A stretch of 29,531 nucleotides of DNA from a virus. Of the stretch, positions 10,136 to 24,102 are shown piece by piece. The notes under the pieces are model-generated. The model did not search any database. It had not been told where the DNA came from and saw only the letters and a program-made list of their open reading frames with translations. The position numbers were made by a program, and so were the translations under genes. Positions within the stretch are counted from its first letter, which is position 1. Each line of letters begins with the position of its first letter. The DNA is taken from positions 1 to 29,531 of IMG/VR virus record IMGVR_UViG_3300025626_000095; one strand, given 5' to 3'.

Positions 10136-10693
10136 TTACATTCCAGGTCTCCAAGGACCTTTTGATTTATCCCAAGCTTTTATTAACTGAGAATTATCTC
10201 TATTTAAAACTCTATCCAACCCAGCTAGTCCAGTTGATACTCCCAATCCAGATTTAACTCCAGTTGGTTTCATATCACCATAACCCATTTTATCAGCTAT
10301 ACTTTGTGCTCCCAATGTATGAGTGGAGTTTGAATCAAACTCCATTGTTCTTTCAGAAACTTCAGTTGGTGCACCAGCATAAGCAGGTGGTTGTCTATCT
10401 AATACACTTCTAGATGTATTTTCACTTATACTAAGTGGTTGTGTTTGTTGTAATACCTTGTTTAACATTGGGTTTTTACTTAAAACTCGTTCTGTTTGGA
10501 TTGGTCTTTCCTCAACATTATTATCCATAAATGTTGGTTGCTTTGGTGTTATGGCTTTTTTAAGTTGTTTGTTTTCTCTTAACAACTTTGCCATTTCTTT
10601 CTTTACACCTTCTTTGACTAGTTTAGGAAGAACCACTTTGATTTCTTCTGCTACTATGATTTGTATTGCTTTAACTAATTTTTCAGTATTCAT
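10136..10693 (-). CDS. Conserved phage protein in the baseplate operon
   Basis: 185 residues, no recognised family. Residues 1-50 form a charged amphipathic helix (KLVKAIQIIVAEEIKVVLPK). The middle is polar and probably disordered, with Gln, Ser and Thr. The C-terminus ends in a compact aromatic block, LIKAWDKSKGPWRPGM, which looks like a conserved docking tail. It is the first gene after the late box at 10713-10725 and lies eight bases before the gp25-like gene. A role in baseplate assembly or as a minor virion protein is inferred from position. Confidence 0.7.
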   Translation of the reverse strand: MNTEKLVKAIQIIVAEEIKVVLPKLVKEGVKKEMAKLLRENKQLKKAITPKQPTFMDNNVEERPIQTERVLSKNPMLNKVLQQTQPLSISENTSRSVLDRQPPAYAGAPTEVSERTMEFDSNSTHTLGAQSIADKMGYGDMKPTGVKSGLGVSTGLAGLDRVLNRDNSQLIKAWDKSKGPWRPGM

Positions 10694-10712
10694 TGTTGTA
10701 ATGGTTTCCTTT

Positions 10713-10725
10713 CTATATAAATATT
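10713..10725 (-). promoter_or_regulatory. Putative late promoter box
   Basis: The coding strand reads AATATTTATATAG followed by AAAGG, 19 bases before the ATG at 10693. Eighteen bases including this box (10708-10725) are identical to 23241-23258 in front of another probable virion gene. There is no TTTG element about 20 bases further upstream, unlike the host-type promoters in this window. Confidence 0.6.
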
Positions 10726-10746
10726 TGTTTTATTGTTTTTTGATTT

Positions 10747-11559
10747 TTATTTGCATTTAGTTCCACCCATTTCCAATTGTTTTATGAAATCAGGTAAAAT
10801 ATTTTCTAATTCTTCGTCAATTACATCATCTGGTATTGTTTCATCTATGACATCTTGTAATAACGTACCATCACTATTAGTTGATGTGTTCTCATTTAAT
10901 TCATTAACTATATCGGAATCAGATTCTTCTATACTGGTAGCCTCACTCTCATCTTCTGATGGGAAGTTAGGATTTGGCCTAGGAATGACAGGTGGGACTA
11001 AATAACCAGTCCAAGGTATAACACCAGGTGCAGGTACGGGTGTCAAAGGCCCTGGGTATAATGATGTTGTTTGTATAATCCCACCCACGCTGAATAAATG
11101 TATAACGGCAGCTAGAATAAACATATTTATCATTATTTCTTGTTTTTTAGCCGGTTTTAATGGTGGGTATATTGGCCATGTTCCAGGATTAATTGCTATA
11201 TTTGAATTTACTACTATATTTTGAATTGAACCAGGTGCAGGTATTAGTGGTATTGGAAATGGAGACATTTGTGCACCAATCCAATAAGCTTTTACACCAT
11301 TACCAAATTCATTTACTAACGAAAAATTTTTACCAGGTGGAGTTGCCAATCCTTTTAACAAAGCAATTAGAAAAAGACTTTTCATTAACTCTTTGTTTCC
11401 CGTTTGAATTGATTCTAAGTTTATAAAATCCTTTCCTCTTTTTATTGCAGCATCATATTCATCTGACCAAATAGTTGCAACTTGGTTAATGCTTAGTGAT
11501 GAATTTCCAGTTGGACTGGTTTTCCTTAATACATTTAGTTTAAATAATGACCAAGACAT
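10747..11559 (-). CDS. Proline-rich virion protein of unknown function
   Basis: 270 residues. The N-terminal domain (1-95) appears helical and globular. Two similar proline-rich segments follow: MSPFPIPLIPAPGSIQNI and YPGPLTPVPAPGVIPW, separated by a hydrophobic helix (MINMFILAAVIHLFSV) that could be buried or membrane-associated. Residues about 200-265 are very acidic (runs such as SEDESEATSIEESDSD). The gene sits between the gp5-like spike gene (one base) and the late box at 10713-10725, inside the baseplate block. No family is recognised. A baseplate or tail-tube-end component is the most likely role, from position alone. Confidence 0.65.
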   Translation of the reverse strand: MSWSLFKLNVLRKTSPTGNSSLSINQVATIWSDEYDAAIKRGKDFINLESIQTGNKELMKSLFLIALLKGLATPPGKNFSLVNEFGNGVKAYWIGAQMSPFPIPLIPAPGSIQNIVVNSNIAINPGTWPIYPPLKPAKKQEIMINMFILAAVIHLFSVGGIIQTTSLYPGPLTPVPAPGVIPWTGYLVPPVIPRPNPNFPSEDESEATSIEESDSDIVNELNENTSTNSDGTLLQDVIDETIPDDVIDEELENILPDFIKQLEMGGTKCK

Positions 11560-11560
11560 T

Positions 11561-12775
11561 TTATTTTAATTGCACATTAGAACTTAACATAGACTTTAAT
11601 TTATTTTTTAACGTTGAAAACAAAGCTACATTAGTTGGGCCCAATGATGTTGGGCCTGCCGGAGTTACATATATTTGTTTGGATATTAAATCTATTAGTT
11701 CCCCTAGCAGTTTTACTAAAGTTTCACCTTTAGGTGCTTTTTCTAAAGTACCATCAGTTCCTAACTTAATAATAGCATTACCTATATTAAGATTAAAATT
11801 AAAATCCTTTGTATTGATATCAATTTCATCATCAACCGTTATATCTATACCTCTACTTGCATCAATTGAAAACTGATTATCAGTTATGAATCCCATATCT
11901 AATTTACTTGCAAATATCATTTCTTGAGATTTTGCTGAAAGAATTATCCTATCAGAATTTAATAAGATTTGATTTCCTTTAAGTTCGCTTGGGTATTTTG
12001 AAAATGATTCCTTTTTATTTTCAATTGGAAGTGTGTATTCTAGTATTTTTTCACCACTACCTAAAAATATAATATTACCATCTTCGTTTACGTTTTCTTC
12101 TACCAATGATTCTTCAGGTAACTTTCTATTTTCCGGAGATTCACCACTCCTTAGAATTAATGTGGGAGAAAATACATTTTCACTATTGTTATATCCACTA
12201 AGTCGTATAGATTGGCCAAATCTGCTTTGGAACAATACATCACCCTCATATAATTTTAATTTGTGTATACCTTCTTCTGCGGTAAAGTAATCACCATAAC
12301 CATCAAGGTCATTTATTGAATTGGAGTCCTTACGAGTGATACCAGTGTTACTCACATTAGAATATTTCTTTCCTGTGTTGCTAGATTTTACTTTCTGTTT
12401 ACCTGGAAATAAAGTTGAAATTGCATTTGTGGGTGATGATGTGTTTGGGGATGACCCTTTAGCAATTTGTGTGTAAACATAATTACTTCCAAACTTTTGT
12501 ACGAATACGGTTTGGTTTCTAATTGGTAATATTGTTACAGTAGAATCAAGTGGTTTGGCTATTATAAGTTCATTGTTTTGAATACTACTCATTAACCTAC
12601 ATTGTATAGAACCTATGTCAGCTAAAGTACTTCTACCACTTTTTATTTCAGGATGAGATTCATCTAATATTACAGAATATACAATTGCTACCTCATTTTC
12701 ATCAAAATTCTCTATAAATGACGAGGCTGCTTGACTGGCTACATTCCATAATAAATTTCCACCAAAAAAACTCAT
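11561..12775 (-). CDS. gp5: Baseplate central spike protein, gp5-like (OB fold, no lysozyme domain)
   Basis: 404 residues. Residues about 25-100 look like the OB-fold domain of gp5/gpV spikes: AIVYSVILDESHPEI, IGSIQCRLM, and LDSTVTILPIRNQTVFVQKF. A second conserved block is EGDVLFQSRFGQSIRLSG (about 180-200), characteristic of spike proteins of T4-like marine phages. The C-terminal half has short repeated beta strands (ILLNSDRIILSAKSQEMIFA, GIDITVDDEIDINTKDFNF), as in a triple-stranded beta-helix. The muramidase domain of T4 gp5 is absent, so peptidoglycan digestion must be carried out elsewhere or not be needed. It forms a tight cluster with flanking genes (one-base gaps). The spike call is strong, the helix extent approximate. 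Confidence 0.82.
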   Translation of the reverse strand: MSFFGGNLLWNVASQAASSFIENFDENEVAIVYSVILDESHPEIKSGRSTLADIGSIQCRLMSSIQNNELIIAKPLDSTVTILPIRNQTVFVQKFGSNYVYTQIAKGSSPNTSSPTNAISTLFPGKQKVKSSNTGKKYSNVSNTGITRKDSNSINDLDGYGDYFTAEEGIHKLKLYEGDVLFQSRFGQSIRLSGYNNSENVFSPTLILRSGESPENRKLPEESLVEENVNEDGNIIFLGSGEKILEYTLPIENKKESFSKYPSELKGNQILLNSDRIILSAKSQEMIFASKLDMGFITDNQFSIDASRGIDITVDDEIDINTKDFNFNLNIGNAIIKLGTDGTLEKAPKGETLVKLLGELIDLISKQIYVTPAGPTSLGPTNVALFSTLKNKLKSMLSSNVQLK

Positions 12776-12776
12776 A

Positions 12777-13172
12777 TTAACTTTGTATTTTTTGTTTAAC
12801 TTCTTCTATATCGTTTTGAATATCATCGATTTTTGCAACTTCGTCTTGGATTTGTTCAACCTCCGAAAGAAGTTGTTCTCTTTCCTTATCAGTAAGGAAA
12901 CCAGTATCACCTTCATTTTTTTGACTTGATGCTACAATTCTTTGTGCAATAGTTGCCAACTTAACCAATTGGTCATCGTTACGAACTGATGTATCTACTA
13001 GGTCTTTTATAACAGGTGCTAGTACTGCCATATCACCAGCATGTCTAATTGTTTTTTTAATTTCTGCAATTAGTTCTGAGATATGTTTTTTCTTATTTGT
13101 TTGATTGTTGTATATATCCTCAAATAACCCACTAAGGTTTTTACCTGGGAATAATTCGAAATCTGTTGACAT
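12777..13172 (-). CDS. Small helical phage protein preceding the spike gene
   Basis: 131 residues, first gene after the late box at 13193-13206. The N-terminus FELFPGKNLSGLFEDIYNNQ resembles small conserved proteins found next to spike and baseplate genes in other marine myoviruses. The centre is helical (IKDLVDTSVRNDDQLVKLA) and the C-terminus (about 95-131) is a Glu/Gln/Asp coiled coil (LLSEVEQIQDEVAKIDDIQN). One base separates it from the gp5-like gene. The function is unknown; a spike chaperone or minor baseplate component is a guess based on position and size. Confidence 0.7.
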   Translation of the reverse strand: MSTDFELFPGKNLSGLFEDIYNNQTNKKKHISELIAEIKKTIRHAGDMAVLAPVIKDLVDTSVRNDDQLVKLATIAQRIVASSQKNEGDTGFLTDKEREQLLSEVEQIQDEVAKIDDIQNDIEEVKQKIQS

Positions 13173-13192
13173 ATTTTTTATAGATTATTATT

Positions 13193-13206
13193 CTATATAT
13201 AAATAT
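13193..13206 (-). promoter_or_regulatory. Putative late promoter box
   Basis: The coding strand reads ATATTTATATATAG, 20 bases before the ATG at 13172 that opens the spike/baseplate operon. It shares the ATATTTATATA core with the boxes at 10713-10725, 18491-18504 and 23246-23258. No TTTG element is present at the host-type spacing. Confidence 0.6.
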
Positions 13207-13235
13207 CAATAAAGAAAAAAGTGGGTTTTATGTGT

Positions 13236-13256
13236 ACTTAGAGTGAGTCTCTAAGT
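13236..13256 (-). terminator. Hairpin after the sigma-factor gene (possible terminator)
   Basis: A perfect 8-bp inverted repeat (ACTTAGAG/CTCTAAGT) with a 5-base loop lies 15 bases past the stop of the gp55-like gene and before the late box at 13193. A T run follows on the minus strand, but only after about 15 bases, so intrinsic termination would be weak. It could instead be an RNA-processing or mRNA-stabilising hairpin. Confidence 0.45.
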
Positions 13257-13271
13257 GGTTAGATGGTAATG

Positions 13272-13994
13272 TTAATAAGAAAAGAACTCATCATCATTGT
13301 TATCAGATATTTCACCATGGTCTAGATATTCATTTAACATCTTCGTTTGATGAGTTTTCATAACATTAACTACTTTTGTAATGTAATGTGTTTTACAATC
13401 TGTCATTTCTCTTATAAGAAGATATAAATGTTTTTTATTAAAATTTTCTATAAATTGACTTCTTCTGAATAATTCTAATATAGCATCTGCTATCTGCACA
13501 TCTCTTTTTTTAGTAAATACCTTTGTAAGATTTTTATCCCAATACTCTAGCATCAATTCTTTAAATTCTGCAAACTCGTTTCCTTTTTGTTCGTGATAAA
13601 AATCATTCTCAGGATTCCAAGTTTCGGGCATCTGAGAAAGTAGTGCCGTTTTTTTATAACGTTTATAATTCCCATTATTACTAAGAATTAAATGGTTTTT
13701 TGCAACAATAGAAAAATAAGAAAATGCTCTACCCTTATCAGGTTTAAACATATGTATCTTTTGAATCAATATAGATACTACTTCCTTTTTAACATCTTCT
13801 TTAGATACATCAAAGTATGAGAACTTAAATGTATTTAGAATATTTTCTGCTAGTTTTTCAAACGGAAATTGGATTCTATCTTTATATATTTGATTTCTCT
13901 CCTTTGGGTCAGTACTAGCATTATATTCAATGATAGCATCTTGAGCAGGTGTACCGAAATATATTTTTGATTTCTTTTTTCTAGGTCTAGGCAT
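13272..13994 (-). CDS. gp55: Late-transcription sigma factor, gp55-like
   Basis: 240 residues. The basic N-terminus MPRPRKKKSKIYFG is followed by sigma region-2-like sequence, with the hallmark HMFKPDKGRAFSYFSIVAKN (about 81-100): the FSYF.IVAKN helix corresponds to the core-binding and -10 recognition part of gp55-type sigma factors. It lacks a sigma region 4, as expected for gp55. In T4, gp55 directs host RNA polymerase to late promoters and binds the sliding clamp through its C-terminus. Here the C-terminus ends in an acidic-aromatic DDEFFSY, which could serve the same purpose. It is downstream of a small membrane protein gene (three-base gap), in the operon started by the host-type promoter at 14284-14315, so it should be made before late genes. 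Confidence 0.85.
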   Translation of the reverse strand: MPRPRKKKSKIYFGTPAQDAIIEYNASTDPKERNQIYKDRIQFPFEKLAENILNTFKFSYFDVSKEDVKKEVVSILIQKIHMFKPDKGRAFSYFSIVAKNHLILSNNGNYKRYKKTALLSQMPETWNPENDFYHEQKGNEFAEFKELMLEYWDKNLTKVFTKKRDVQIADAILELFRRSQFIENFNKKHLYLLIREMTDCKTHYITKVVNVMKTHQTKMLNEYLDHGEISDNNDDEFFSY

Positions 13995-13997
13995 ATT

Positions 13998-14267
13998 TTA
14001 TAAATTTGTTTTGTACTTTTCAATAGTATCTTTCAACTCTTTGAAAACTACCCCAACTTCATCATCCGATTCAAATGAACCTCTGATGTCTATTTCTTTC
14101 ATATCACTATACATTTTTTCTAAAGTACTGATAGATAATTCATTTAGATTATCCATATCATTAGCTATTGTTTCTATTTGTCTAACTAATTGCGTACCCC
14201 TTACAACAAAAAATATATTGGATATTACTAAAACTCCAATTACTATGTATAAATAAATTTCTTCCAT
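13998..14267 (-). CDS. Small single-pass membrane protein
   Basis: 89 residues from the preferred ATG at 14267. The N-terminus MEEIYLYIVIGVLVISNIFF is a membrane span, followed by a helical, charged cytoplasmic or periplasmic tail that may coil (IETIANDMDNLNELSISTLE). A longer reading starts at 14306 and would add 13 residues, but that ATG falls in the spacer of the host-type promoter at 14284-14315, so the transcript would not include it. It is co-transcribed with the gp55-like gene. The function is unknown. Confidence 0.65.
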   Translation of the reverse strand: MEEIYLYIVIGVLVISNIFFVVRGTQLVRQIETIANDMDNLNELSISTLEKMYSDMKEIDIRGSFESDDEVGVVFKELKDTIEKYKTNL

Positions 14268-14283
14268 TTTGATATTATATTTA

Positions 14284-14315
14284 CTAATATACGAAAAAAA
14301 ATTCAACTTTCCAAA
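14284..14315 (-). promoter_or_regulatory. Host-type (Bacteroidetes) promoter
   Basis: On the coding strand TTTG (14315-14312) is followed by exactly 20 bases and TATATTAG (14291-14284). This matches the Bacteroidetes housekeeping layout TTTG-N19-21-TAnnTTTG with one change in the -7 box. It drives the small membrane protein and gp55-like genes; the -7 box ends 16 bases before the ATG at 14267. Confidence 0.7.
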
Positions 14316-14543
14316 TTAAGCCTCGCCTTTTTTTCCAAAGAAAGGAAATAGTAGTGATTCTGGCTCTTCTTGTTCTTCTATTTCTTTCCTTTGATGTTTT
14401 TCTAATTTTTTTATTCTTTCAATAATCTTATTATCGAATCCATTCTCATCAATTAAGCCTTCATCCATTAATTCTTCAACCAAAGTTTCTAATATAATTT
14501 CTAAAGTTTTAATTTTTTGTTCCAATATGTAAAGTCTTTTCAT
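14316..14543 (-). CDS. Small coiled-coil phage protein
   Basis: 75 residues. Residues 1-60 are helical and charged, with heptad spacing (LEQKIKTLEIILETLVEELM, then KKLEKHQRKEIEEQEE). The end is a hydrophobic block, SLLFPFFGKKGEA, which could bind a partner. It is the last gene of the operon running from UvsE; its stop abuts the next promoter. Its size, charge and place beside the late sigma gene would allow a gp33-like co-activator, but I see no specific signature and leave it unassigned. Confidence 0.6.
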   Translation of the reverse strand: MKRLYILEQKIKTLEIILETLVEELMDEGLIDENGFDNKIIERIKKLEKHQRKEIEEQEEPESLLFPFFGKKGEA

Positions 14544-14548
14544 ATGGG

Positions 14549-14800
14549 CTATATAGTTAAAGAACCAGTTGTAACATTTAGTGAATGTAAGAATTCTTTA
14601 AAATCTATATCCGATGGAGTTTCGTAATCCAACTCTCCAAATGCTTTAGTGATTGAATTATTATGATACCCCATTGATGATGCCATTCGAACACACATAA
14701 TTTTAAATTCATGTATATTCATATCGTCTGGTACATCAAACGTTATGTTTATTGCCTCTCTATTTTTAGGCTCTTCGGATTTATATGATAATACTCCCAT
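14549..14800 (-). CDS. Conserved small phage protein
   Basis: 83 residues. The central pattern MNIHEFKIMCVRMASSMGYH followed by NSITKAFG resembles small hypothetical proteins seen in many tailed phages, with a helix-turn arrangement. The C-terminus (DIDFKEFLHSLNVTTGSLTI) is also helical. The ATG overlaps the stop of the deformylase-like gene (TAATG), and the next gene is six bases away. The function is unknown. Confidence 0.65.
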   Translation of the reverse strand: MGVLSYKSEEPKNREAINITFDVPDDMNIHEFKIMCVRMASSMGYHNNSITKAFGELDYETPSDIDFKEFLHSLNVTTGSLTI

Positions 14801-15387
14801 TATACTAATTGATATCCTTTATCTAAAAGAGGTTGAGCTTTTTTGTATTTAACAAATTCCATTTCTCCTTCAGGTGATTGTAACATTACTCTTTCATTTC
14901 TACCAGGTTTCTTTTCTGCTTTAATTTGTCCACTATATCTTCTAATAGATGAATTAATACTAATACCATCAATAGAATCAATTAAACGCTGTGCAGTAAT
15001 GCATTCAAATAAACCTAAGTCATTCATATATTCCTCTTGGTCTTTCCATTCTTTCTTATCTGATGAGAATTCTACTACACCTAAGTTATCGGTATCCACT
15101 TTAAACCATTGATGTCTAGCAGTTTTTCTAATCTTTTGTTTACCATATGGTTTACCATCCATTTCTTTTTCAAAATAAACAACCATCTCTTTAGAGGTTT
15201 CGATAACTTTTGGATTTACCAATGTTAACTCATCATAATCACCACCAAATTTAATAGTAACAATACGTTTATCTATTCCAACATCAGATGCATTAACTGC
15301 ATACTCTATACCTTTAGATATTTTTTCTTTATATTTTGCTAACTCTTCGTTTGAGACTGGAGTTTTTTCAATTCTTTTTACTATCAT
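14800..15387 (-). CDS. Peptide-deformylase homologue lacking catalytic residues
   Basis: 195 residues. The sequence follows the deformylase fold in order: ASDVGIDKRIVTIKF (where the family has GLAAPQIG..KRIVVI), LVNPKVIETSKEMVVYFE (family: L.NP.I...S......EGCLS), a strand pair with RHQWFKVDTDNLGVVEF, and FECITAQRLIDSIDGISI (family: E...AQHE.DHL.GI). The metal ligands are gone: the QHExDH motif reads Q-R-L-I-D-S (residues 133-138) and the Cys of EGCLS is missing. The C-terminus has GRNERVM...FVKYKKAQPLLDKGY, an extension I associate with phage deformylases. Removal of N-formyl groups is therefore unlikely; a binding or regulatory role is possible. The fold call is by motif comparison only. Confidence 0.65.
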   Translation of the reverse strand: MIVKRIEKTPVSNEELAKYKEKISKGIEYAVNASDVGIDKRIVTIKFGGDYDELTLVNPKVIETSKEMVVYFEKEMDGKPYGKQKIRKTARHQWFKVDTDNLGVVEFSSDKKEWKDQEEYMNDLGLFECITAQRLIDSIDGISINSSIRRYSGQIKAEKKPGRNERVMLQSPEGEMEFVKYKKAQPLLDKGYQLV

Positions 15388-15544
15388 AATATTTTTCTAT
15401 TTCTTCAGTTAAGTATTCTACTGCTTCTGAACTACCCATTACTGCTCCATACTTTGCATAAAAAGGAATCCATTTATCTTTATCAGATTTAATTCGTTTG
15501 TCTAATTCATATTTTTCAGGCAATATAACCTTTATATAACTCAT
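15368..15544 (-). CDS. Small phage protein, 58 aa
   Basis: 58 residues, from MSYIKVILPEKYELDKRIKS to the end DSKKN and a TGA stop. Its ATG overlaps the cupin stop (ATGA, 15544-15541), and its 3' end overlaps the deformylase-like start by 20 bases, so all are translated as one string. The composition (Lys, Glu, Tyr) and a WIPFYAKYGAV stretch suggest a folded helical protein. No family is recognised. Confidence 0.6.
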   Translation of the reverse strand: MSYIKVILPEKYELDKRIKSDKDKWIPFYAKYGAVMGSSEAVEYLTEEIEKYYDSKKN

Positions 15545-15927
15545 AATAAATCTTCAGGTGTTTCTCTATAAACTCTATAACTATCTTCATCAAAGTGTTC
15601 AGTGGAAACCTCAAATACAATTGAGTTATCTTCTAATGCAATTAGTTGATGAGGTTGACCTCTTTCAATTGTAACCGATTGTCCTTTCTCTAAAGTACTA
15701 CCTTCTAATTTACCATCTTCTACATTTAGCCAATTGAATTGGAATCTACCTTCTTCTACATCTCAACTTTCTTTTTTCTGAAGGTGGTAATGCATTGAGA
15801 ATCTATTTCTATCCTTTGTGAATACCAATAACTTACCACAGTACTCATTATCATTATGAATCCACAATTCATATCCCCATTTCTTTTCAACTCGCTTAGG
15901 AGTTGTTATATTAGTTTCTATAATCAT
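15541..15927 (-). pseudogene. Cupin-domain protein interrupted by an in-frame TGA
   Basis: A 128-codon frame encodes a cupin of the mannose-6-phosphate isomerase/sugar-epimerase-like type: KWGYELWIHNDNEYCGKLLV, then the metal-binding HYHLQKKES, then GRFQFNWLNVEDGKLEGSTL and the second motif GQPHQLIALED. Codon 55 (15765-15763) is TGA exactly where relatives have a Trp (KKE.W.V), so a single G-to-A change would explain it. The frame is open on both sides and junctions are intact (ATGA with UvsE and with the 58-aa gene), so decay is recent, or the stop is read through, or it is an assembly error. Relatives act in nucleotide-sugar or glycan metabolism. Confidence 0.75.
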
Positions 15928-16877
15928 ATTGCGTAACTTTGTGTGTTTAATAATCCACTATATTCACATGCATTATATTTTCCCATGTGTGGTATAATTG
16001 CAAGTTCTTTTGCTTTAGCCTCTACCATTACATCAACATCCATTCCATATAGTTTAGGAAGTTTGTTAATGTAATCTGAATGTGCTTGTTCTTTTATTTT
16101 TGTATTTTCTTCATGCAATCGTTTTGATTCAGAATAATGAACAATTGGTTTTATACCAATGGGCCAAGTAGTTGCTGCCAACTTCAATGCATCTTCTTCA
16201 GTTAATCCACCTGTACAAAATTGGTGGTGATGATAATCAAATACAATAGGAATACCAATTTGTTCATGTAAGTACATTAAATCTTTTACGGAATACATAG
16301 ATTCTTTATCATCGTTCTCAACTGTTAATCTACTTCGTACTGATTTTGATAATCTTTTGAAGTTTTCACAAAATCGTTTCATAGCCGAATCTTTATCTCC
16401 ATAAACTCCATTACAATGAATATTGATTTTATTATAATGTGATTGTTCTAATCCCATTAAATCAAATATCTTAGCATGTAACTCCAAATCTTTAATTGTA
16501 TTTTCCACAACATGAGGTCTTGGTGAAACTAATACATTGAAAGGGCCAGGATGAGATGTGATTCTAATACCATTCTTTTTGGCATAATTGCCACAAGCCA
16601 TTAGTATAGTTTTAATTCTAAGATAGTGTGGTGATTTTTCTATTTCATACTCTGAACCCCAAGGAAACATCTCAGAAGATAATCTGAATAGTTTAATATT
16701 ATTCTCGTTATTCCATTCTAAAATTCTATACAAGTCTCTAGCATTTTGTAATGCTAGTTCAGTTGCATATTCAACTCCCCTTTCTATAAATGTTCGTTTA
16801 ATCATTGAACGATTGGTAGTTACTTTTGGCTTTTGACTCGATAGAGTCATATTAATACAAGCGTATCCTAAATTCAT
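15924..16877 (-). CDS. uvsE: UV damage endonuclease (UvsE/UVDE)
   Basis: 317 residues, a TIM-barrel apurinic/UV endonuclease that nicks 5' of pyrimidine dimers and other lesions. The start MNLGYACINMTL is the standard family N-terminus. Metal-binding and active-site blocks are in order: FRLSSEMFPWGS, ITSHPGPFNVL, INIHCNGVYGDK, LTVENDD, IPIVFDYHHHQFC and IVHYSES. A reading from a TTG at 16907 would add ten residues, but that TTG is the end of the -7 box of the promoter at 16905-16936, so the ATG at 16877 is preferred. It is the first gene of the operon that includes the broken cupin and the deformylase-like gene. It is a sensible repair function for a phage of sunlit water. Confidence 0.92.
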   Translation of the reverse strand: MNLGYACINMTLSSQKPKVTTNRSMIKRTFIERGVEYATELALQNARDLYRILEWNNENNIKLFRLSSEMFPWGSEYEIEKSPHYLRIKTILMACGNYAKKNGIRITSHPGPFNVLVSPRPHVVENTIKDLELHAKIFDLMGLEQSHYNKINIHCNGVYGDKDSAMKRFCENFKRLSKSVRSRLTVENDDKESMYSVKDLMYLHEQIGIPIVFDYHHHQFCTGGLTEEDALKLAATTWPIGIKPIVHYSESKRLHEENTKIKEQAHSDYINKLPKLYGMDVDVMVEAKAKELAIIPHMGKYNACEYSGLLNTQSYAI

Positions 16878-16904
16878 TTCGTTAGATTTATCATTTGTTA
16901 TAAA

Positions 16905-16936
16905 CAAATATACGAAAAAATTATTTAAAAACCAAA
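16905..16936 (-). promoter_or_regulatory. Host-type (Bacteroidetes) promoter
   Basis: On the coding strand TTTG (16936-16933) is followed by 20 bases and a consensus TATATTTG (16912-16905). It is the best match in the window and stands 27 bases before the UvsE ATG at 16877. Confidence 0.8.
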
Positions 16937-16942
16937 TTTATT

Positions 16943-18289
16943 TCAATAAGTTTTTGAATCGAAGTTGTCAGGATAGTTTGTATCTTTTTCGTTTTTGATA
17001 TAAGTTAACCAATAGTTAACTGCATTTTGATTATTAATCCACTTACTTCTATCGCCCCAATTAAAATTAGGTCTTGCATAAAATGGAACTTCATTCAGTA
17101 CATATTGGGCTCTACGAGATGATGCAGGAACTACCTCATCAATTAACCCGTCACCGGTATTATCATATCCATCAACCGTACCATCACCATCTATATCTAT
17201 ACCTCTACGAGATACATCTTTTTTTAATAAATCAAACTCAGAAACTATTTCCTTTAATGCTTCATTTGGTTCTGATGAATTTTCTCTTTCTTCTAATATT
17301 TTAGAAATTTCCTTAGATGTAAGTTCTGTATCATCTGACTCATTAGCTAAAGTTTCTTCTAAACTTTCTATTTTAGAATCCTCATCGGGTTCAATACCCC
17401 ACTCCTCTTCTTCATTATATAACTCATCACTATCATCATCTTCGGGCTCCTCACCATATAACTCTCTCTTAGTAACTATCTTTTCTTTATCATCAATTCC
17501 CCTATCTACTTTTAAAGCATTGTTAAAAGAGATTACAAGCGCTACTGCTAACGGGTCAAATACAAAGATAATGATTAGTATAAACCAATTGATAATAACA
17601 TCCATAGGTTTATCTAATAACCCACTAAGGTATTGTAGAGGGCCCAATTCCGATGATACCCCTTCATCGGATTCTACATCTAATATTCTTAATTGAATTG
17701 TTTGCAATGAATCTGCTACTACTTCTCGTTTTGATTGAACACCTTTACGATTCTCTTCTTCGACTGATATTCTTTTTTGTGATAATCTTAATTCGGTTGT
17801 GGAAATAGTATTTCTAAATCCAGTTGTAGATGCCGTATCTCTGACTTGGATGCCAGTTGATTTAGCATTAGATAGAGTTGATATGTTTTCGGATATTCTA
17901 TTTAACTCAATATCATATCGTGCAACATCATCTGCCCAAAACTTTTCTTTTTGTTGTAAGAATGCTAATTGCTTTTCCTTTACACTAAATTGATTGAATG
18001 TATCTTGGAATGCCGATGTTAGGAATCCATAGATACCTAATGATGTTATTAGAATTAAAATAAGAACTGCTCCACTTAGGTATATCCTAAATGATTTGTT
18101 TATTTTATCCCAATAATTGTATAGGTACCCAGCCGTTATAAGTTTAGCTAGTTCTAATGAACTTGCCATTATTATTACGGATACAGCTGCTCCAGCAAAT
18201 AGTTTAGATAAACCACTTACCGAAAAGAATGCAGCATTGAATGCAACAAACAATGCAGTTAACCCTAATAATAACGTTCTGAATTTCAT
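16943..18289 (-). CDS. Four-helix membrane protein with coiled coil and calcium-loop motif
   Basis: 448 residues. Three membrane spans lie near residues 5-25, 30-57 and 70-93, and a fourth near 230-258 (INWFILIIIFVFDPLAVALV). Between the third and fourth is a long coiled coil (about 100-215: KEKQLAFLQQKEKFWADDVA). After the fourth span the chain is very acidic (EEPEDDDSDELYNEEEEWG). Residues about 365-385 contain DIDGDGTVDGYDNTGDGLID, which fits a pair of calcium-binding DxDxDG loops. The C-terminus is aromatic. Overall layout resembles DUF4407-type proteins, but I am not certain. It follows a 57-aa gene behind a late-type box, so it may be a late membrane protein affecting the infected cell's envelope. 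Confidence 0.7.
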   Translation of the reverse strand: MKFRTLLLGLTALFVAFNAAFFSVSGLSKLFAGAAVSVIIMASSLELAKLITAGYLYNYWDKINKSFRIYLSGAVLILILITSLGIYGFLTSAFQDTFNQFSVKEKQLAFLQQKEKFWADDVARYDIELNRISENISTLSNAKSTGIQVRDTASTTGFRNTISTTELRLSQKRISVEEENRKGVQSKREVVADSLQTIQLRILDVESDEGVSSELGPLQYLSGLLDKPMDVIINWFILIIIFVFDPLAVALVISFNNALKVDRGIDDKEKIVTKRELYGEEPEDDDSDELYNEEEEWGIEPDEDSKIESLEETLANESDDTELTSKEISKILEERENSSEPNEALKEIVSEFDLLKKDVSRRGIDIDGDGTVDGYDNTGDGLIDEVVPASSRRAQYVLNEVPFYARPNFNWGDRSKWINNQNAVNYWLTYIKNEKDTNYPDNFDSKTY

Positions 18290-18298
18290 TTGTGGATT

Positions 18299-18472
18299 TT
18301 AACGAATTAAATTTCCAGTTAGTTCTAATAACCTTTCAATTTTTTTCGTTAACTTTATGGCGTCTGATTGGTTAGATGGTCTCTTTCCTTCTAACATTTC
18401 AGCAATTACTTTATTGGAATTTAAGATTCCTTCTAGGTATCCTTCTATCTTTTCTTTGTATTCTGGTTTCAT
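18299..18472 (-). CDS. Small helical phage protein, 57 aa
   Basis: 57 residues, beginning MKPEYKEKIEGYLEGILNSN and ending ERLLELTGNLIR with TAA. It is rich in Lys, Glu, Leu and Ile, consistent with one or two amphipathic helices. It starts 18 bases after the late-type box at 18491-18504 and ends nine bases before the four-helix membrane protein gene, so the two form a short operon. No family is recognised. Confidence 0.65.
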   Translation of the reverse strand: MKPEYKEKIEGYLEGILNSNKVIAEMLEGKRPSNQSDAIKLTKKIERLLELTGNLIR

Positions 18473-18490
18473 AATAACAGTCTTTATTAG

Positions 18491-18504
18491 TATATATAAA
18501 TATT
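18491..18504 (-). promoter_or_regulatory. Putative late promoter box
   Basis: The coding strand reads AATATTTATATATA, 18 bases before the ATG at 18472. It lies just past the terminator hairpin at 18513-18540, so it can start a fresh transcript for the 57-aa and membrane protein genes. Confidence 0.6.
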
Positions 18505-18512
18505 AAATAATC

Positions 18513-18540
18513 AAAAAAGGGAGATTTTCACAACCTCCCT
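18513..18540 (-). terminator. Rho-independent terminator after HSP20
   Basis: On the minus strand AGGGAG and CTCCCT form a 6-bp stem around an 11-base loop, followed directly by six T residues. It lies 24 bases past the HSP20 stop and just before the next promoter box. Confidence 0.75.
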
Positions 18541-18563
18541 CCATTTGATTGATACCACTAAAA

Positions 18564-18935
18564 CTAGAATCTAACCTTTATTTTTTTAGATTTTCGTTCT
18601 TCTTTTTTGTCCATAACAATTGTTAGAACACCATTTTCAATTGATGCCTCTGATGTTGTTCCATCAAAATCTTTTCCAACTTTGAATCTTAAATTTATAT
18701 TACGAACTACTGCATTTACCTTTTTGGCTTTTGCTTTAATTGTAATATTACCTTCGGTAACATCAACATCCACATCCTTTGGATTGTGTCCTACTACATT
18801 TACAATAAGTTCTTGTCTACCATCTTCTAGCATAGTGATAGAATAGTTTCCTTGATTGTATTCAATTGGGTTATCCCAATTTGATTTACCTAGTGGAGAT
18901 AAATCATTAAATAAATTTTCGATTGTATAAATCAT
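18564..18935 (-). CDS. Small heat-shock protein (HSP20/alpha-crystallin)
   Basis: 123 residues. The alpha-crystallin domain spans about 28-115, with the family's strands GRQELIVNVVGHNPKDVDVD, EGNITIKAK and the ENGVLTIVM motif near the end; the basic C-terminus KKIKVRF is usual. Such proteins hold unfolding proteins in solution, and marine T4-like phages often carry one, possibly to help virion assembly. It is a single-gene unit: a compound inverted repeat lies upstream (19000-19023) and a terminator downstream. I see no host-type promoter at the proper spacing in front. Confidence 0.9.
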   Translation of the reverse strand: MIYTIENLFNDLSPLGKSNWDNPIEYNQGNYSITMLEDGRQELIVNVVGHNPKDVDVDVTEGNITIKAKAKKVNAVVRNINLRFKVGKDFDGTTSEASIENGVLTIVMDKKEERKSKKIKVRF

Positions 18936-18999
18936 ATTTTTATTTTTAAGTTAAACATTTGATTTATATATTACCAAATTTGTACCAATTTATAATAAA

Positions 19000-19023
19000 T
19001 GACATAATGTCAGTTTTACTGAC
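19000..19023. promoter_or_regulatory. Compound inverted repeat between HSP20 and upstream gene
   Basis: Two overlapping palindromes: TGACAT-A-ATGTCA (19000-19012) and GTCAGT-TTT-ACTGAC (19009-19023). Together they give three alternating TGTCA/TGACA half-sites. They begin two bases after the stop of the 124-aa gene and lie 65-88 bases before HSP20. There is no T run, so an intrinsic terminator is less likely than an operator or an RNA hairpin. Confidence 0.5.
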
Positions 19024-19025
19024 AA

Positions 19026-19400
19026 TTAGTCTTCTATGTATTTTGATGTTAATGCCCTATATAGAACTTCTAACTCCTCTTCACTTGTACAAAATCCCAA
19101 TCCATCAAAATCTAATATTTCAACAAAATATTGATTTGGGCTTAATCCCATGTTTTTTAATTCCAATTCATCATCAGATGAATTTGTTACAAACCTAGGA
19201 GCATATCTATCAGTTCGTTCCTTTGGAATTGCAATTGTCCAAAAGTATGCTTTGTCTAACTCATCACCCTCTTCAACATCTTCTCTATTTTCCATAAAAT
19301 CACCAGTACCTTTGTAATCATTCGAGATATGTTTTGACCAACCTTGTCTTTTAAAAGTTTCATCAGTTAATGGCGTAACTTGTAATTTTACTTTTCTCAT
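19026..19400 (-). CDS. Conserved hypothetical phage protein, 124 aa
   Basis: 124 residues, acidic, no recognised family. The N-terminus MRKVKLQVTPLTDETFKRQG and a YFWTIAIPKERTDRYAPRFV stretch suggest beta-rich folding; the end is helical (SEEELEVLYRALTSKYIED). Its ATG overlaps the stop of the lipoprotein gene (ATGA). It is the last gene of the operon from the promoter at 20499-20530. Confidence 0.65.
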   Translation of the reverse strand: MRKVKLQVTPLTDETFKRQGWSKHISNDYKGTGDFMENREDVEEGDELDKAYFWTIAIPKERTDRYAPRFVTNSSDDELELKNMGLSPNQYFVEILDFDGLGFCTSEEELEVLYRALTSKYIED

Positions 19401-19972
19401 TGTAATACAATTCTGATGGTTTCTTGTATGTCTTCAAATCTTGCTTTTACAATAAGTGTATCACCTACCATTTCATCTATTGGTGCTATAACTGTATTTA
19501 TTTCTCCACCATCACCACTATATGAAAACTCATTAATGGTTGGTACAATACTTCCAGCAAATCCAGTTACATAAGTTGTATCTACATCAACCCAATCACC
19601 CAATACATTTATAGTTCTTCTAATGAAGACATACGCAGTATCATTTAAAGTCCATTGATGTGATGATTCCCATTCAACTAATTGTGGATATGGTTCTTCG
19701 CCGTTATTTAAAAGTTTACCACTTATTCTGTGAATAGTCTGAATAGAGTTTTGTGTAGAGTTTAGTTCTAATTTATATAACCCATCATCGGTTGTATCTA
19801 ATCTACTATCTAGTTCGAGTGTATAGTTATCTGGTAATTCATCCATGATAGTATCCTCACAACTTGTTAGTAGTGTAAGTAATATCAATACTGATATGAA
19901 TAGCAAAATAAACTTTAACAATTTAGTTGTTATTTTTTCAGTTTGTTGTTTCCTATACTCTTTATCGTTCAT
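19397..19972 (-). CDS. Predicted lipoprotein
   Basis: 191 residues. A basic N-region is followed by a hydrophobic core (LLKFILLFISVLILLTLL) and a lipobox LLTSC with Cys at 38, so the mature protein should be lipid-anchored in the envelope. The acidic CED after the lipid Cys is noted because Bacteroidetes surface lipoproteins often carry acidic residues there. The mature part is beta-patterned and has no recognised family. It is coupled on both sides (TAATG with the nucleotidase, ATGA with the 124-aa gene). A phage lipoprotein could alter the cell surface or block superinfection, but nothing in the sequence settles this. Confidence 0.75.
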   Translation of the reverse strand: MNDKEYRKQQTEKITTKLLKFILLFISVLILLTLLTSCEDTIMDELPDNYTLELDSRLDTTDDGLYKLELNSTQNSIQTIHRISGKLLNNGEEPYPQLVEWESSHQWTLNDTAYVFIRRTINVLGDWVDVDTTYVTGFAGSIVPTINEFSYSGDGGEINTVIAPIDEMVGDTLIVKARFEDIQETIRIVLQ

Positions 19973-20490
19973 TATAATAATTTAGTTAATATACTATCCC
20001 ATGTTGGATACTCATTTGGTTTGTTGTTATTTTCCCAATCCAATCCGAATCTTAATAACTCACCCTTAAACTCACCAGCACCATTCTTAATTCTATCATC
20101 AATAAGGTAATCACCCATTAATAAATCTTTTCTGTGAGTGATAAACATTTTCTTGTGAAATAAATCTCCAAAGTAATCTTCAATCCAAAATCTTTTATCT
20201 GCATTACTCTGAGGGTTACCCCATGGAGCAGAAGTAGCAATCATTAATTCATACTTACCACTTTCGTGTAATTTCTTTACAGCCTCAATAGCACCTTTCA
20301 TTGGTGGTGCAATTCTGAATAATCCTTGAATATGGTCAGGAAATGTTTTATATCTTTCTTTTAAATGTGGATGATTAGTAAACCAATCTTCTATTGCCTT
20401 ACCGAAATCAACCAAAACCCCATCCATATCAATGTAAACTATTTTTTTCTTCAATACTTTTTTGTTTTTTATGTTATTATTATCACTCAT
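19972..20490 (-). CDS. 5'(3')-deoxyribonucleotidase-like HAD phosphatase
   Basis: 172 residues. HAD motif I is VYIDMDGVLVDFG, motif II is MIATSAPWGNP, the motif III lysine falls in THRKDLL and motif IV is DYLIDDR. The order and the short cap between motifs fit the NT5C family, which dephosphorylates deoxynucleoside monophosphates. It probably adjusts the nucleotide pool, in keeping with the dCMP deaminase and DUF1599 genes nearby. It begins a three-gene operon behind the promoter at 20499-20530. Confidence 0.87.
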   Translation of the reverse strand: MSDNNNIKNKKVLKKKIVYIDMDGVLVDFGKAIEDWFTNHPHLKERYKTFPDHIQGLFRIAPPMKGAIEAVKKLHESGKYELMIATSAPWGNPQSNADKRFWIEDYFGDLFHKKMFITHRKDLLMGDYLIDDRIKNGAGEFKGELLRFGLDWENNNKPNEYPTWDSILTKLL

Positions 20491-20498
20491 TTACTATG

Positions 20499-20530
20499 TA
20501 AATATACAAAATTTATTTGACATTACCAAA
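20499..20530 (-). promoter_or_regulatory. Host-type (Bacteroidetes) promoter
   Basis: TTTG (20530-20527), 20 bases, then TATATTTA (20506-20499) on the coding strand: consensus except for the last base. It stands just before the ATG at 20490, so the transcript leader must be very short. Confidence 0.65.
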
Positions 20531-20541
20531 TTTTTCATCAA

Positions 20542-20853
20542 TTATTTTAAGTATTCTGGTCCATAATAAGACCAATTATCAGTACCATCAAAGATGTTAC
20601 CTCTACTATGTTTAGCAGGTGTTCTCCAACTAGCAGGTTTCAGTAGGTCTCCTTTTTTAATTGGTGATTGTTTTAATTCACCATCTATCATAGATACGAA
20701 TGCCCAAACAGTATCACCATCCATAATTTTAAGGTATTTACTACCTTTACTGATTTCTAATGATTCGTATGGTTTGTATGAGAAATTATTATTCCAATAT
20801 GTTTCTCTTTCGTTGTTTACTTTTTCAAGCCAAAATTCAAATTTAGTTTTCAT
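20542..20853 (-). CDS. Conserved hypothetical phage protein, 103 aa
   Basis: 103 residues rich in aromatic residues: MKTKFEFWLEKVNNERETYW, then a SKYLKIMDGDTVWAFVSMID strand pair and GDLLKPASWRTPAKHSRGNI. The spacing of Trp and Gly suggests a small beta domain. It is alone behind the promoter at 20911-20942, with about 50 bases of leader that includes a GGGGGTGATTCTCCC stretch able to fold back on itself. The function is unknown. Confidence 0.65.
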   Translation of the reverse strand: MKTKFEFWLEKVNNERETYWNNNFSYKPYESLEISKGSKYLKIMDGDTVWAFVSMIDGELKQSPIKKGDLLKPASWRTPAKHSRGNIFDGTDNWSYYGPEYLK

Positions 20854-20910
20854 GTTTTAGTGTTTTAAGGTTTAACGTTTTGGGAGAATCACCCCCACTC
20901 AATTACAAGA

Positions 20911-20942
20911 CTAATATACAAAAAAAAGTTGAGACTACCAAA
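20911..20942 (-). promoter_or_regulatory. Host-type (Bacteroidetes) promoter
   Basis: TTTG (20942-20939), 20 bases, then TATATTAG (20918-20911) on the coding strand. It lies inside the inverted repeat at 20921-20961: the TTTG element is in the loop and the spacer includes one arm. Confidence 0.7.
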
Positions 20943-20961
20943 TGTTTTCCCAACTTTTTTT
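20921..20961 (-). terminator. Terminator hairpin after PhoH, overlapping a promoter
   Basis: An 11-bp perfect inverted repeat (AAAAAAAGTTG/CAACTTTTTTT) surrounds a 19-base loop, beginning 18 bases after the PhoH stop. On the minus strand the second arm ends in a run of T, as in an intrinsic terminator, though the stem is mostly A-T. Confidence 0.6.
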
Positions 20962-20979
20962 AATAAATTTTAATAAATT

Positions 20980-21642
20980 TTATTGATACGCACTCAATAA
21001 TCTAAGTACATCATCCAATGCTGCATGTCTATGGTTATCCAATAGGTTAACTGAATATACGTGATTAGAAGGCTTTACTTTAGGAACTTCATGTATTGCT
21101 GAATCATTTGGAAACTTTAAATCTATTTGTTGAGGGTCTCCAGTTAAAATCATCGTTGACCCTTTACCCAATCTACCCAATACCATACCAAGTTGTTGCT
21201 TGGTTAAGTTTTGATACTCATCAACTATTACTATTGAGTTTTCAAATGTCCTTCCTCTAAAGTGAGTCAATGACACTAATTCAATATGCTCATCCTTCTC
21301 CATCTTTTCTAAAATGGCAGGTTTGTTATAAACTTTTCTCATATTGGAACGAATTGGCACTAACCAAGGCTCCATCTTTTCATCTAATGAACCAGGTAAA
21401 AATCCATTATCTTCATTTGATATGGTTGGTCTTGTTATAACTATCTTATTGCACTGTCTTGTAAAAAACATATCTAATGCAATTTGTACTGCTAATAAAG
21501 TTTTACCAGAACCTGCTTTTCCTTGAATAAAATTGTAAGGGTGATACATTATTGCGGTTTTTGCTAACTTTTGTTCATCCGATAAAGATAAGTTAAATTT
21601 AATCTTACCTTTAGGTGGAACTTTTGTGATGTTCTCTGCCAT
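20980..21642 (-). CDS. phoH: PhoH-like ATPase
   Basis: 220 residues. Walker A is GKAGSGKT (41-48), Walker B is SIVIVDEYQNL (about 136-146), and the following motif TGDPQQIDL (167-175) is typical of PhoH proteins; RPTISNEDNGFLPGSLDEKM is also diagnostic. The family are P-loop ATPases related to superfamily-1 helicases, very common in marine phages; the exact role in infection is unsettled. Four bases separate it from the upstream 119-aa gene, and a terminator hairpin follows. Confidence 0.93.
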   Translation of the reverse strand: MAENITKVPPKGKIKFNLSLSDEQKLAKTAIMYHPYNFIQGKAGSGKTLLAVQIALDMFFTRQCNKIVITRPTISNEDNGFLPGSLDEKMEPWLVPIRSNMRKVYNKPAILEKMEKDEHIELVSLTHFRGRTFENSIVIVDEYQNLTKQQLGMVLGRLGKGSTMILTGDPQQIDLKFPNDSAIHEVPKVKPSNHVYSVNLLDNHRHAALDDVLRLLSAYQ

Positions 21643-21645
21643 TTT

Positions 21646-22005
21646 CTAATTAATAATTGTTATCTTATGCGATTTTTTAGTTGGATTTTTTCGTTTGGGT
21701 TTGATTGTTTTTTCATACTTTACAATCTCAGCACAAATTTCGTATTTTTCCATTCGTTCACACAAATTTAGTAATCTATGTAAAGCCAACATATAATCCG
21801 TCTTCTCTACAACTGATACAATATCAATGTTAGAAAATTCAACAAGTATAATAGAAGGTAAGCTTCTACTATGTGCGTCAATTAAAAGGAATAAGGATTG
21901 GGTAAGAAACTCATCTCCGTAGTTATACAAATACTCATTCAATGTGGTATTATTGAGAGAGAAATATTTTCTCCAGTCAACATTTGCTAATGGTTTATTC
22001 TTCAT
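21646..22005 (-). CDS. Hypothetical protein upstream of phoH
   Basis: 119 residues, no recognised family. The first 95 residues appear mainly helical (DEFLTQSLFLLIDAHSRSL, ALHRLLNLCERMEKYEICAE); the last 20 are strongly basic (KPKRKNPTKKSHK), which could bind nucleic acid. It shares a transcript with phoH. Confidence 0.6.
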   Translation of the reverse strand: MKNKPLANVDWRKYFSLNNTTLNEYLYNYGDEFLTQSLFLLIDAHSRSLPSIILVEFSNIDIVSVVEKTDYMLALHRLLNLCERMEKYEICAEIVKYEKTIKPKRKNPTKKSHKITIIN

Positions 22006-22031
22006 AACCTGTAAATGTTAGATTGTTACAA

Positions 22032-22066
22032 TTATAAATATAAAATTTGAAAAGTTTTTTGGTAAA
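22032..22066 (-). promoter_or_regulatory. Promoter candidate of uncertain class
   Basis: The coding strand contains TATATTTATAA about 26 bases before the ATG at 22005, close to the late box. It can also be read as a weak host-type promoter: TTTA (22066-22063), 20 bases, TATATTTA (22042-22035). The gene content (phoH operon) favours the second reading. Confidence 0.4.
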
Positions 22067-22083
22067 AGTTAGAATATTTAGTA

Positions 22084-23232
22084 TTATAGCTTGGGTTTTG
22101 GTCTCTTACCAGAGTTTCCAATTGCACCCTTGTCTTCTATCCAACTTTCAAATTCACCATCCCACTCCCAGTATTTACCATCTTTGAATACGGTTTCATT
22201 TGCCGTAGTACCCTTTCTTCCAATTGGTGGATAAAGAGATATCGGTGATGATACGGGTTCATTGTTTTCGTTGGTACTCGTATTAGTTTGTTCGGATGGA
22301 GAATCTTCTGGAATATCTTCTTCTTTTGAATATCCATCAAAATCACCCAACTCATTAGTTGGTATTAATCTATCATCATAGTTTGAAGATGGTTTGGATA
22401 CAACCCAGCTTAAATATTTAAGTAGCTCTTCAATCTCATAAGTAGGTATTGCTTCTAATGAACCATCGGCACCAACTTTATAATTTGAATTAACAAATAA
22501 ATTTTTTCTAACTTCAACTTGGCCTTTTATTTCGTTTCTATTTAAGTTGATACTTAATTCTTTTTTACGTAATGCCTCAACTTTTTCTTTTAATGGTTTT
22601 ATGTCAACAACTACAATATTCTTTTTTTCAATAATATCATTTACTCCAAATGGTCTACCTTTTGTATATTCGGCCTCTAATACTTTGAGGAATTTTTTAG
22701 TTGCCCATAACTGAGGTATTCCATCAAGACCATCTTTTAGGGAAACCACGAAATCAAAATTTATATCTGGATTATCTGTTGTTTTTATTTTAGATAAATC
22801 ATATTTAACAACGTTTACTTTTACTTGTGGATACTTAGCTTTAGTTGGGTCGTTTGTTAGTCCAATTGAAATGGGTGTTTCTGGTTCTTTCGAATCTACA
22901 TATAATGGTATACTACTATTAACATCAAAATCACCAATAACTTGATAGTCAATTTCCTCAGAAATTGGATTAAAATTTTCTCTAATACTTCGAAATCTTC
23001 TCTTTCTATTTTTTCGTTTAGAACCTATGAGTTTCTGTATAATACTACTTTTACTTGATTTCTGCGAGGTTTGTGGAGATGCTGCTGCAGATGTTGGTGG
23101 TGGGGTTGGGATTGGTGATGGGGGATTATTCGTGCTAGTATTACTGGTGTTACTATTGGTATTACCACTATTACCACTATTACTTGGACCTGTTTGAATT
23201 TGATTTGAATTCGGACTTCGTCTTTCTGCCAT
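22084..23232 (-). CDS. Probable virion protein with disordered N-terminus
   Basis: 382 residues. Residues 1-75 are almost wholly Ser, Asn, Thr, Pro, Gln and Gly (disordered), ending in a basic block SKRKNRKRRFRSI. Residues about 90-290 are a globular domain of alternating strands and helices (KYPQVKVNVVKYDLSKIKTT, GIPQLWATKKFLKVLEAEYT). A second linker follows, and the C-terminus has a small aromatic unit, VFKDGKYWEWDGEFESWIED. The linkers and basic patch recall tail-region proteins such as those at 2821-5495. It is preceded by a late box identical over 18 bases to the one before the baseplate operon, which supports a structural role. No family is recognised. Confidence 0.65.
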   Translation of the reverse strand: MAERRSPNSNQIQTGPSNSGNSGNTNSNTSNTSTNNPPSPIPTPPPTSAAASPQTSQKSSKSSIIQKLIGSKRKNRKRRFRSIRENFNPISEEIDYQVIGDFDVNSSIPLYVDSKEPETPISIGLTNDPTKAKYPQVKVNVVKYDLSKIKTTDNPDINFDFVVSLKDGLDGIPQLWATKKFLKVLEAEYTKGRPFGVNDIIEKKNIVVVDIKPLKEKVEALRKKELSINLNRNEIKGQVEVRKNLFVNSNYKVGADGSLEAIPTYEIEELLKYLSWVVSKPSSNYDDRLIPTNELGDFDGYSKEEDIPEDSPSEQTNTSTNENNEPVSSPISLYPPIGRKGTTANETVFKDGKYWEWDGEFESWIEDKGAIGNSGKRPKPKL

Positions 23233-23240
23233 TGTTATTC

Positions 23241-23273
23241 CCTTTCTATATAAATATTAAGTTTTAAGAAAGG
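23241..23273 (-). promoter_or_regulatory. Putative late promoter box within an inverted repeat
   Basis: AATATTTATATAG (23258-23246 on the coding strand), followed by AAAGGG seven bases before the ATG at 23232, a good ribosome-binding spacing. The box is flanked by a 7-bp inverted repeat (CCTTTCT 23241-23247, AGAAAGG 23267-23273), which may form a hairpin after the dCMP deaminase stop. Confidence 0.6.
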
Positions 23274-23732
23274 TTACACACTCAAGAAATCATCATCATA
23301 AAATTTAACCTCTACACCCGCCTCATCAAACATTGTCCAACTTCTTTCAGCTGATTCTGCCCACTTAGGTCCGTTGGCACCACCACCTCTTTCACAGAAT
23401 ATTCTAACGATACCAGCATTGATAATTCCTCTAGCACAATCGGAACAAGGAACTCCACAACTTAAATACATAGTACACCCTTTGGTAGATACACCTATTC
23501 TTGCTGCATTATAGATAGCGTTACGTTCACCATGTTCAAACCAAAAGTATTTCTCTGGTCTTTCTTGTCTGTCTTTTCTGAAATCATCTATTCCCCTTGG
23601 AAAGGAATTATAGCCAGTAGATACTATTTCTTTATCTTTACCAACTATGATAGCACCTATTTGAGTTCTATCATCTTTGGATTTTAGTTTAACTTGATGC
23701 GCTAAGTTTCTAAAGTATTCTACCCACTTCAT
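23274..23732 (-). CDS. dCMP deaminase-like zinc enzyme
   Basis: 152 residues. The zinc and catalytic motifs are H67-G-E69 (FEHGERNAIYNAARIG) and P-C96-S-D-C99 (GVPCSDCARGII), which define the cytidine/dCMP deaminase family; HGE replaces the commoner HAE. The N-terminus (AHQVKLKSKDDRTQIGAIIV) and SFPRGIDD match dCMP deaminases, which make dUMP for thymidylate synthesis. It overlaps the DUF1599-like gene by one base. Confidence 0.9.
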   Translation of the reverse strand: MKWVEYFRNLAHQVKLKSKDDRTQIGAIIVGKDKEIVSTGYNSFPRGIDDFRKDRQERPEKYFWFEHGERNAIYNAARIGVSTKGCTMYLSCGVPCSDCARGIINAGIVRIFCERGGGANGPKWAESAERSWTMFDEAGVEVKFYDDDFLSV

Positions 23733-24079: not shown

Positions 24080-24102
24080 ATTTTATATTTTATGTTTATA
24101 AA

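Follow-up and report, generated by a model that had tools for sequence, protein, structure and literature searches.

Genes and boxes in the viral window

The window, which is the whole stretch of DNA analysed here, is an IMG/VR fragment of 29,531 nt (IMGVR_UViG_3300025626_000095) in which all called genes lie on the minus strand. The genes and hairpins that surround four short upstream boxes are as follows.

7659-9692, minus strand: gp6-like baseplate wedge protein, box-1 operon
9699-10127, minus strand: gp25-like baseplate wedge protein, box-1 operon; 31% to gp113 of Flavobacterium phage immuto, E 1e-17
10136-10693, minus strand: first gene of the box-1 late operon, 185 aa, no assigned function
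12777-13172, minus strand: first gene of the box-2 late operon, orthologue of immuto gp117 (31%, E 3e-20)
13236-13256, minus strand: hairpin between the sigma gene and box 2, z -3.9, with a T run about 13 nt later
13272-13994, minus strand: putative gp55-related late sigma factor, 240 aa, unannotated; no box of its own; the only candidate reader of the boxes
18299-18472, minus strand: gene behind box 3, 57 aa, no assigned function
18516-18542, minus strand: intrinsic-terminator-like hairpin and T run directly before box 3, -20 kcal/mol, z -3.9
22084-23232, minus strand: gene behind box 4, 382 aa, no assigned function

Behind box 1 the operon runs in the order 10136, gp25-like gene, gp6-like gene and tail genes. 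The original prediction had described the genes behind all four boxes as late-type; this is certain for the operons of 12777 and 10136 only, 18299 and 22084 being without an assigned function. A compact terminator is present at the junction of the sigma gene and box 2 in several relatives, and the box is directly preceded by a hairpin of terminator type and its T run in several relatives and, in the window, at 18299. A scan for sigma-70-type promoters gave fewer matches than shuffles and was uninformative.

Three other features of the window were recorded. The adjacent tail-region proteins encoded at 2821-4218 and 4218-5495 (minus strand) share a near-identical C-terminus ~30 residues long (FGGSST-Q-M-SDINDPNSSYN), suggestive of a docking tag or a recent duplication. 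A cupin-like frame (mannose-6-phosphate-isomerase type by eye) at 15600-15927 (minus strand) has one in-frame stop after 54 codons and is then open, with a plausible reading, to ...TPEDLL; and the contig edge (29137-29531) is a highly repetitive acidic (GD/DE/EK) low-complexity coding stretch with three frames open.

The boxes and the host-like sequences with which they contrast are listed below; copies of the octamer TATTTATA form the cores of the boxes, and three further copies on the minus strand (8050, 14248 and 28133) have no start nearby.

10716-10723 (11-mer 10714-10724), minus strand: candidate late box 1, TATTTATA core, 22 nt before ORF 10136; kept in 29/30 distinct orthologous upstream regions
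13198-13205 (11-mer 13196-13206), minus strand: candidate late box 2, TATTTATA core, 25 nt before ORF 12777; TATTTATA in 47/57 orthologous upstream regions and TATTTATT in 8 more
18495-18502 (11-mer 18493-18503), minus strand: candidate late box 3, core, 22 nt before ORF 18299; 8/9 orthologous upstream regions
23249-23256 (11-mer 23247-23257), minus strand: candidate late box 4, core, 16 nt before ORF 22084; 3/3 orthologous upstream regions
22033-22040, minus strand: probable weaker late box TATTTATAATT with the 8-mer TATTTATA, 27 nt before ORF 21646; kept by the nearest relatives and absent from more distant ones
25496-25503, minus strand: possible box, 8-mer TATTTATA, 3 nt before ORF 24836; atypical spacing, may be chance, a single orthologous upstream region compared
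20499-20506, minus strand: contrasting host-like box TATATTTA with TTTGG upstream, before ORF 19972
24103-24110, minus strand: contrasting host-like -7 box TATCTTTG, before ORF 23732

As predicted, the four strong boxes share a sequence on the coding strand: exact ATATTTATATA occurs at all four and nowhere on the plus strand. When the coding strand was modelled as a first-order Markov chain, 0.15 copies were expected on average and at most 2 appeared in 300 runs. The 18 bases AATATTTATATAGAAAGG are common to boxes 1 and 4, and the TTTG element is absent from all four, both as originally described. The spacing of 13–20 bases before the start codon was slightly off, as the 3' end of the 11-mer lies 20, 23, 20 and 14 nt from the ATG for boxes 1–4 respectively. 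Allowing one mismatch in the 11-mer, the window alone contained 12 sites against 7.2 expected, which is not above chance; the window by itself was thus thin evidence and relatives were brought in. It is position, orientation and conservation in these relatives that form the strong evidence, and they confirm that the boxes are real and not the product of chance.

Enrichment of the box in related phages

Using the gp55-like ORF 13272-13994, 80 related viral contigs were found, together with three cultured or complete records that contain a relative of the sigma gene: Flavobacterium phage immuto (160 kb), Microcystis phage Mel-JY01 (190 kb) and LR756508. Contig genes were simple longest-ORF calls, and the sites were de-duplicated, the contigs being related and not independent. 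Among distinct copies of ATATTTATATA in the 80 contigs, 50/73 lay at most 40 nt upstream of a start on the same strand, compared with 0/74 in the reversed orientation; likewise TATTTATA was upstream of starts in 105/278 cases and TATAAATA, the T4 late octamer, in 11/278.

For an unbiased ranking, every 8-mer upstream of called genes was scored against coding sequence, with T4 as the control. The top-ranked 8-mer of T4 was TATAAATA (12 versus 0.24 expected); that of immuto was TATTTATA (20 versus 0.20), as was that of the window relatives (60 versus 0.92). TATTTATA was also enriched upstream in long contigs of 52–207 kb (9–19 versus 0.16–0.55 expected) and in Mel-JY01 (12 versus 0.70), whose leaders also carry GGAG. 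Upstream enrichment of TATAAATA was small, at 6 versus 0.38 in immuto and 6 versus 1.0 in the window relatives. In the sampled 50 kb of LR756508 TATTTATA was not enriched, although the sigma is present, and in 100 of the 235 kb of Tenacibaculum phage pT24 we found the host-type TATATTTG, no enrichment of TATTTATA and no relative of the sigma.

Reverse-complementing TATAAATA gives exactly TATTTATA, and where T4 has TATTTATA upstream of a gene it is a divergent late promoter seen from behind, so that the box could be the T4 element seen from the opposite strand, either truly inverted or belonging to antisense or divergent promoters. We consider this highly improbable. Nearly all genes of the long relatives point one way and divergent genes are almost absent from the window clade, so that there are no divergent partners; moreover the flanks are asymmetric (A before; AT then purines after) and, with the positions at operon starts, fit transcription of the downstream gene. 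The original prediction had left the sequence as inverted or diverged. Of the two, divergence is the better reading, because the two octamers can be read in one palindromic frame (TAT-AA-ATA / TAT-TT-ATA) in which only the two central bases differ and the adenines that occupy deep pockets in T4 are kept.

Core and flanks of the element

In 120 aligned sites the base at -1 of the octamer was A in 116; immuto has A or C at this position, with C in 11/21 sites. The same alignment showed no information peak in the -35 region and a purine at index 12, about 5 nt past the box, in 103/120 sites. If the box occupies -13 to -6, its place in T4, a transcription start at that purine would fit. The core of the element is ATATTTATA, without a -35 element. 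The box matches a T4-type late promoter in lacking a -35 and in preceding virion operons on the coding strand, but not in its consensus octamer; in promoters of this type transcription begins about one helical turn beyond the box and is switched on late in infection.

Operon starts, gene class and orthologous upstream regions

In immuto, a gene counted as an operon start when the gap before it was 20 nt or longer, the box was scored as TATTTAT[AT] and the virion block was set by us from annotation and position. The box was present at 28/96 operon starts compared with 2/137 genes without a gap (p 2e-10). Operon starts of the virion block carried it in 16/28 cases, and others in 12/68 (p 4e-4), these 12 non-virion starts counting against the late-promoter reading. 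Boxed genes include those for terminase, portal, tail sheath, tube, hub and tape measure; some virion genes, such as that for the major capsid protein in immuto and Mel-JY01, have no recognisable box, which also counts against that reading. The genome-wide enrichment that had been proposed is thus borne out in the complete immuto genome and the long contigs, with T4 as control, both upstream of starts and, at operon starts, in virion genes.

A host-like box, TAnnTTTA[GT], had the opposite distribution in immuto, being found at 0/28 virion-block and 24/68 other operon starts (p 7e-5). At immuto positions 17660-24130 several small early genes stand in a row, and the near-identical leader (TTG ... 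TATATTTAGGTATCAATAATTAAAACA) that every one of them has forms a repeated host-like promoter cassette.

These data bear on whether the boxes are degenerate promoters of the host sigma-A, used by the host holoenzyme. The Bacteroidota sigma-A promoter has a -7 box TAnnTTTG (PMC9723704); like the late box it is a T/A-rich -10-type element, NATATTTA partly fits it, and both kinds of box occur at similar distances from starts. It differs from the late box in register and flanks, and serves a separate gene set in the same phages: the host-like class of immuto (TTG...TAnnTTTA[GT]) and the late box are mutually exclusive. The late box does not have the combination of TAnnTTTG with a -33 TTG, the -33 TTG itself being absent, and it runs on into a fixed ATA that a host box does not need; the C that precedes TATTTATA at about half of the immuto sites departs from the A of TAnn; and the same box occurs, together with GGAG leaders, in Mel-JY01, whose host is recorded as cyanobacterial. 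A host sigma-A origin is consequently improbable.

Orthologues of 10136 keep TATTTATA at protein identities down to ~32%. By comparison, TATTTATA is present in 0/48 and 0/14 orthologous upstream regions of 7659 and 11561, which are operon-internal, and in 1/60 of those of the sigma gene 13272. This argues against the box acting in the mRNA, as a translation enhancer or processing site, and not as a promoter. Such a role would suit a box placed 10–30 nt before start codons in phages without a Shine-Dalgarno sequence, yet operon-internal genes lack it both here and in immuto, at several loci it comes straight after terminator-like hairpins, and in Mel-JY01 it co-exists with GGAG; we give an mRNA-level signal very little weight.

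A gp55-related sigma factor

The original prediction had also placed a gp55-like sigma factor in the window, and this was upheld. An alignment of 31 relatives of ORF 13272-13994 matched the gp55 family, represented by four gp55 proteins taken from database records, at E 2.8e-6 over 92 collinear columns (hhalign); the C-terminal domain alone gave E 0.56 as a control. The matches of its predicted fold (pLDDT 76) in PDB and BFVD were overwhelmingly sigma factors, although individually weak in Foldseek (PDB E above 0.001). Sequence searches of Pfam, PHROGs and PDB with the window protein gave nothing usable, and profile–profile and fold comparison alone worked. Homology to region 2 identifies the ORF as a gp55-related sigma factor.

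The sigma is single-copy in the six genomes searched (immuto, where it is gp118, Mel-JY01, Rhodothermus phage RM378 and three long contigs), and its profile found no copy in T4. Pfam Sigma70_r2 found a further sigma only in RM378; as this model also misses the window-type sigma, other diverged sigmas may be present. Members of the gp55 family have no region 4, its part being taken by gp33. The window protein has a conserved C-terminal helical domain (pLDDT 88) with no clear structural match, and its assignment as sigma region 4 was not established. Another trait of the family is a hydrophobic C-terminal tail that binds the clamp; in near relatives the sigma ends in acidic-aromatic tails, e.g. 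DEFFSY, which are not conserved in immuto.

T4 late promoters are read by gp55 with gp33 and gp45 (PMC2988020, PMC7892883). The T4 sliding clamp family (PF02916) was not detected in immuto, Mel-JY01, RM378, G003, G005 or G006, and immuto and RM378 have family-A-type DNA polymerases. These phages may have no clamp-coupled late transcription, or a diverged form of it, and the T4 activation scheme may thus not carry over.

Pocket residues and the divergence of the octamer

In the cryo-EM structure of T4 gp55 (PMC7892883), Y97 is the stacking partner of A(-12), T99 bonds with A(-8) inside a deep pocket, and N13 and H95 form the shallow pocket that holds A(-9). When placed by alignment, and not from a structure, the corresponding columns in the 31 relatives are Y for Y97 (31/31), S/T for T99 (31/31), F for H95 (31/31) and mostly T/S/K for N13; LR756508 and Mel-JY01 have similar pocket residues. 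TATTTATA and TATAAATA are the same at 6/8 positions, with A(-12) and A(-8) kept and -10/-9 changed from AA to TT. The kept bases would therefore face kept residues, and the changed -9 position would face changed residues.

The proposed system resembles that of T4 in having a single AT-rich octamer at -10 without a -35, placed before virion operons, and a region-2-type phage sigma. It differs in that R57 is Thr as well as in the replacements at H95 and N13, and in the greater length of the sigma, with its C-terminal helical domain.

Late boxes of T4, KVP40, 44RR and cyanophages have ATAAATA cores (PMC2988020, PMC2984593), with a late consensus NATAAATA in S-PM2 and other cyanophages (PMC2984593) and a/gC at -13/-12 in Aeh1 (PMC2988020). 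These variants are likewise cases of clade-specific drift of one late box, but they vary at -13/-12 and keep the central AA, whereas central TT is the rule in the window clade. We found no report of a central TT in a T4-family late box in the open-access literature, and no open-access paper that links TATTTATA with a late promoter and phage, an absence that is weak evidence; a paper on Baltic Flavobacterium phages (PMC7077304) does not mention a promoter or sigma factor.

A further parallel is RM378. Its Rm378p020, which carries no annotation, is distantly homologous to the window sigma (E 1e-10), and TTATTTAA, with the same TATTTA core, is found upstream of starts (28 versus 0.24 expected), including before the portal gene. 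The tube, sheath and terminase operons of RM378 have the TATTTA core as well. Unlike in the window clade, the box ends in AA and not TA, and RM378 also has an annotated ECF-type sigma.

Discussion

Taken as a whole, the box and the phage gp55-related sigma are very likely to be the late-promoter system of a large clade of T4-related myoviruses. These distant T4 relatives mark the starts of virion operons with TATTTATA, and the one diverged T4-type late sigma encoded by each phage probably reads it. We propose that [A/C]TATTTATA is the sole, -10-type element of these promoters; that host RNA polymerase carrying the phage sigma (ORF 13272-13994) would recognise it on the non-template strand, using no -35 element, as in T4; and that the AT-rich DNA would then be melted and transcription begin at the purine ~5 nt beyond the box, with a leader ~10–20 nt long. 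Relative to T4, the sigma would differ at the -9 pocket, those for A(-12) and A(-8) being retained, and -10/-9 of the box would have gone from AA to TT. A fuller version is put forward tentatively and with rather less than even confidence: that a single two-domain gp55-related sigma reads TATTTATA, its own C-terminal domain replacing gp33 and perhaps without a T4-type clamp; that the -9 pocket is where promoter and sigma diverged together; and that the clade spans phages of Bacteroidota and, from the host record of Mel-JY01, of cyanobacteria.

With the box as a signal, late genes could be recognised across a large group of aquatic phages, whose late sigma lacks an annotation even where members have been cultured; sequence could then serve to predict which genes are early and which late. 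The changed bases and residues at one pocket also offer a natural experiment on the joint change of a sigma factor and its promoter, and the cultured pair of immuto and Flavobacterium sp. LMO8 makes the model directly testable.
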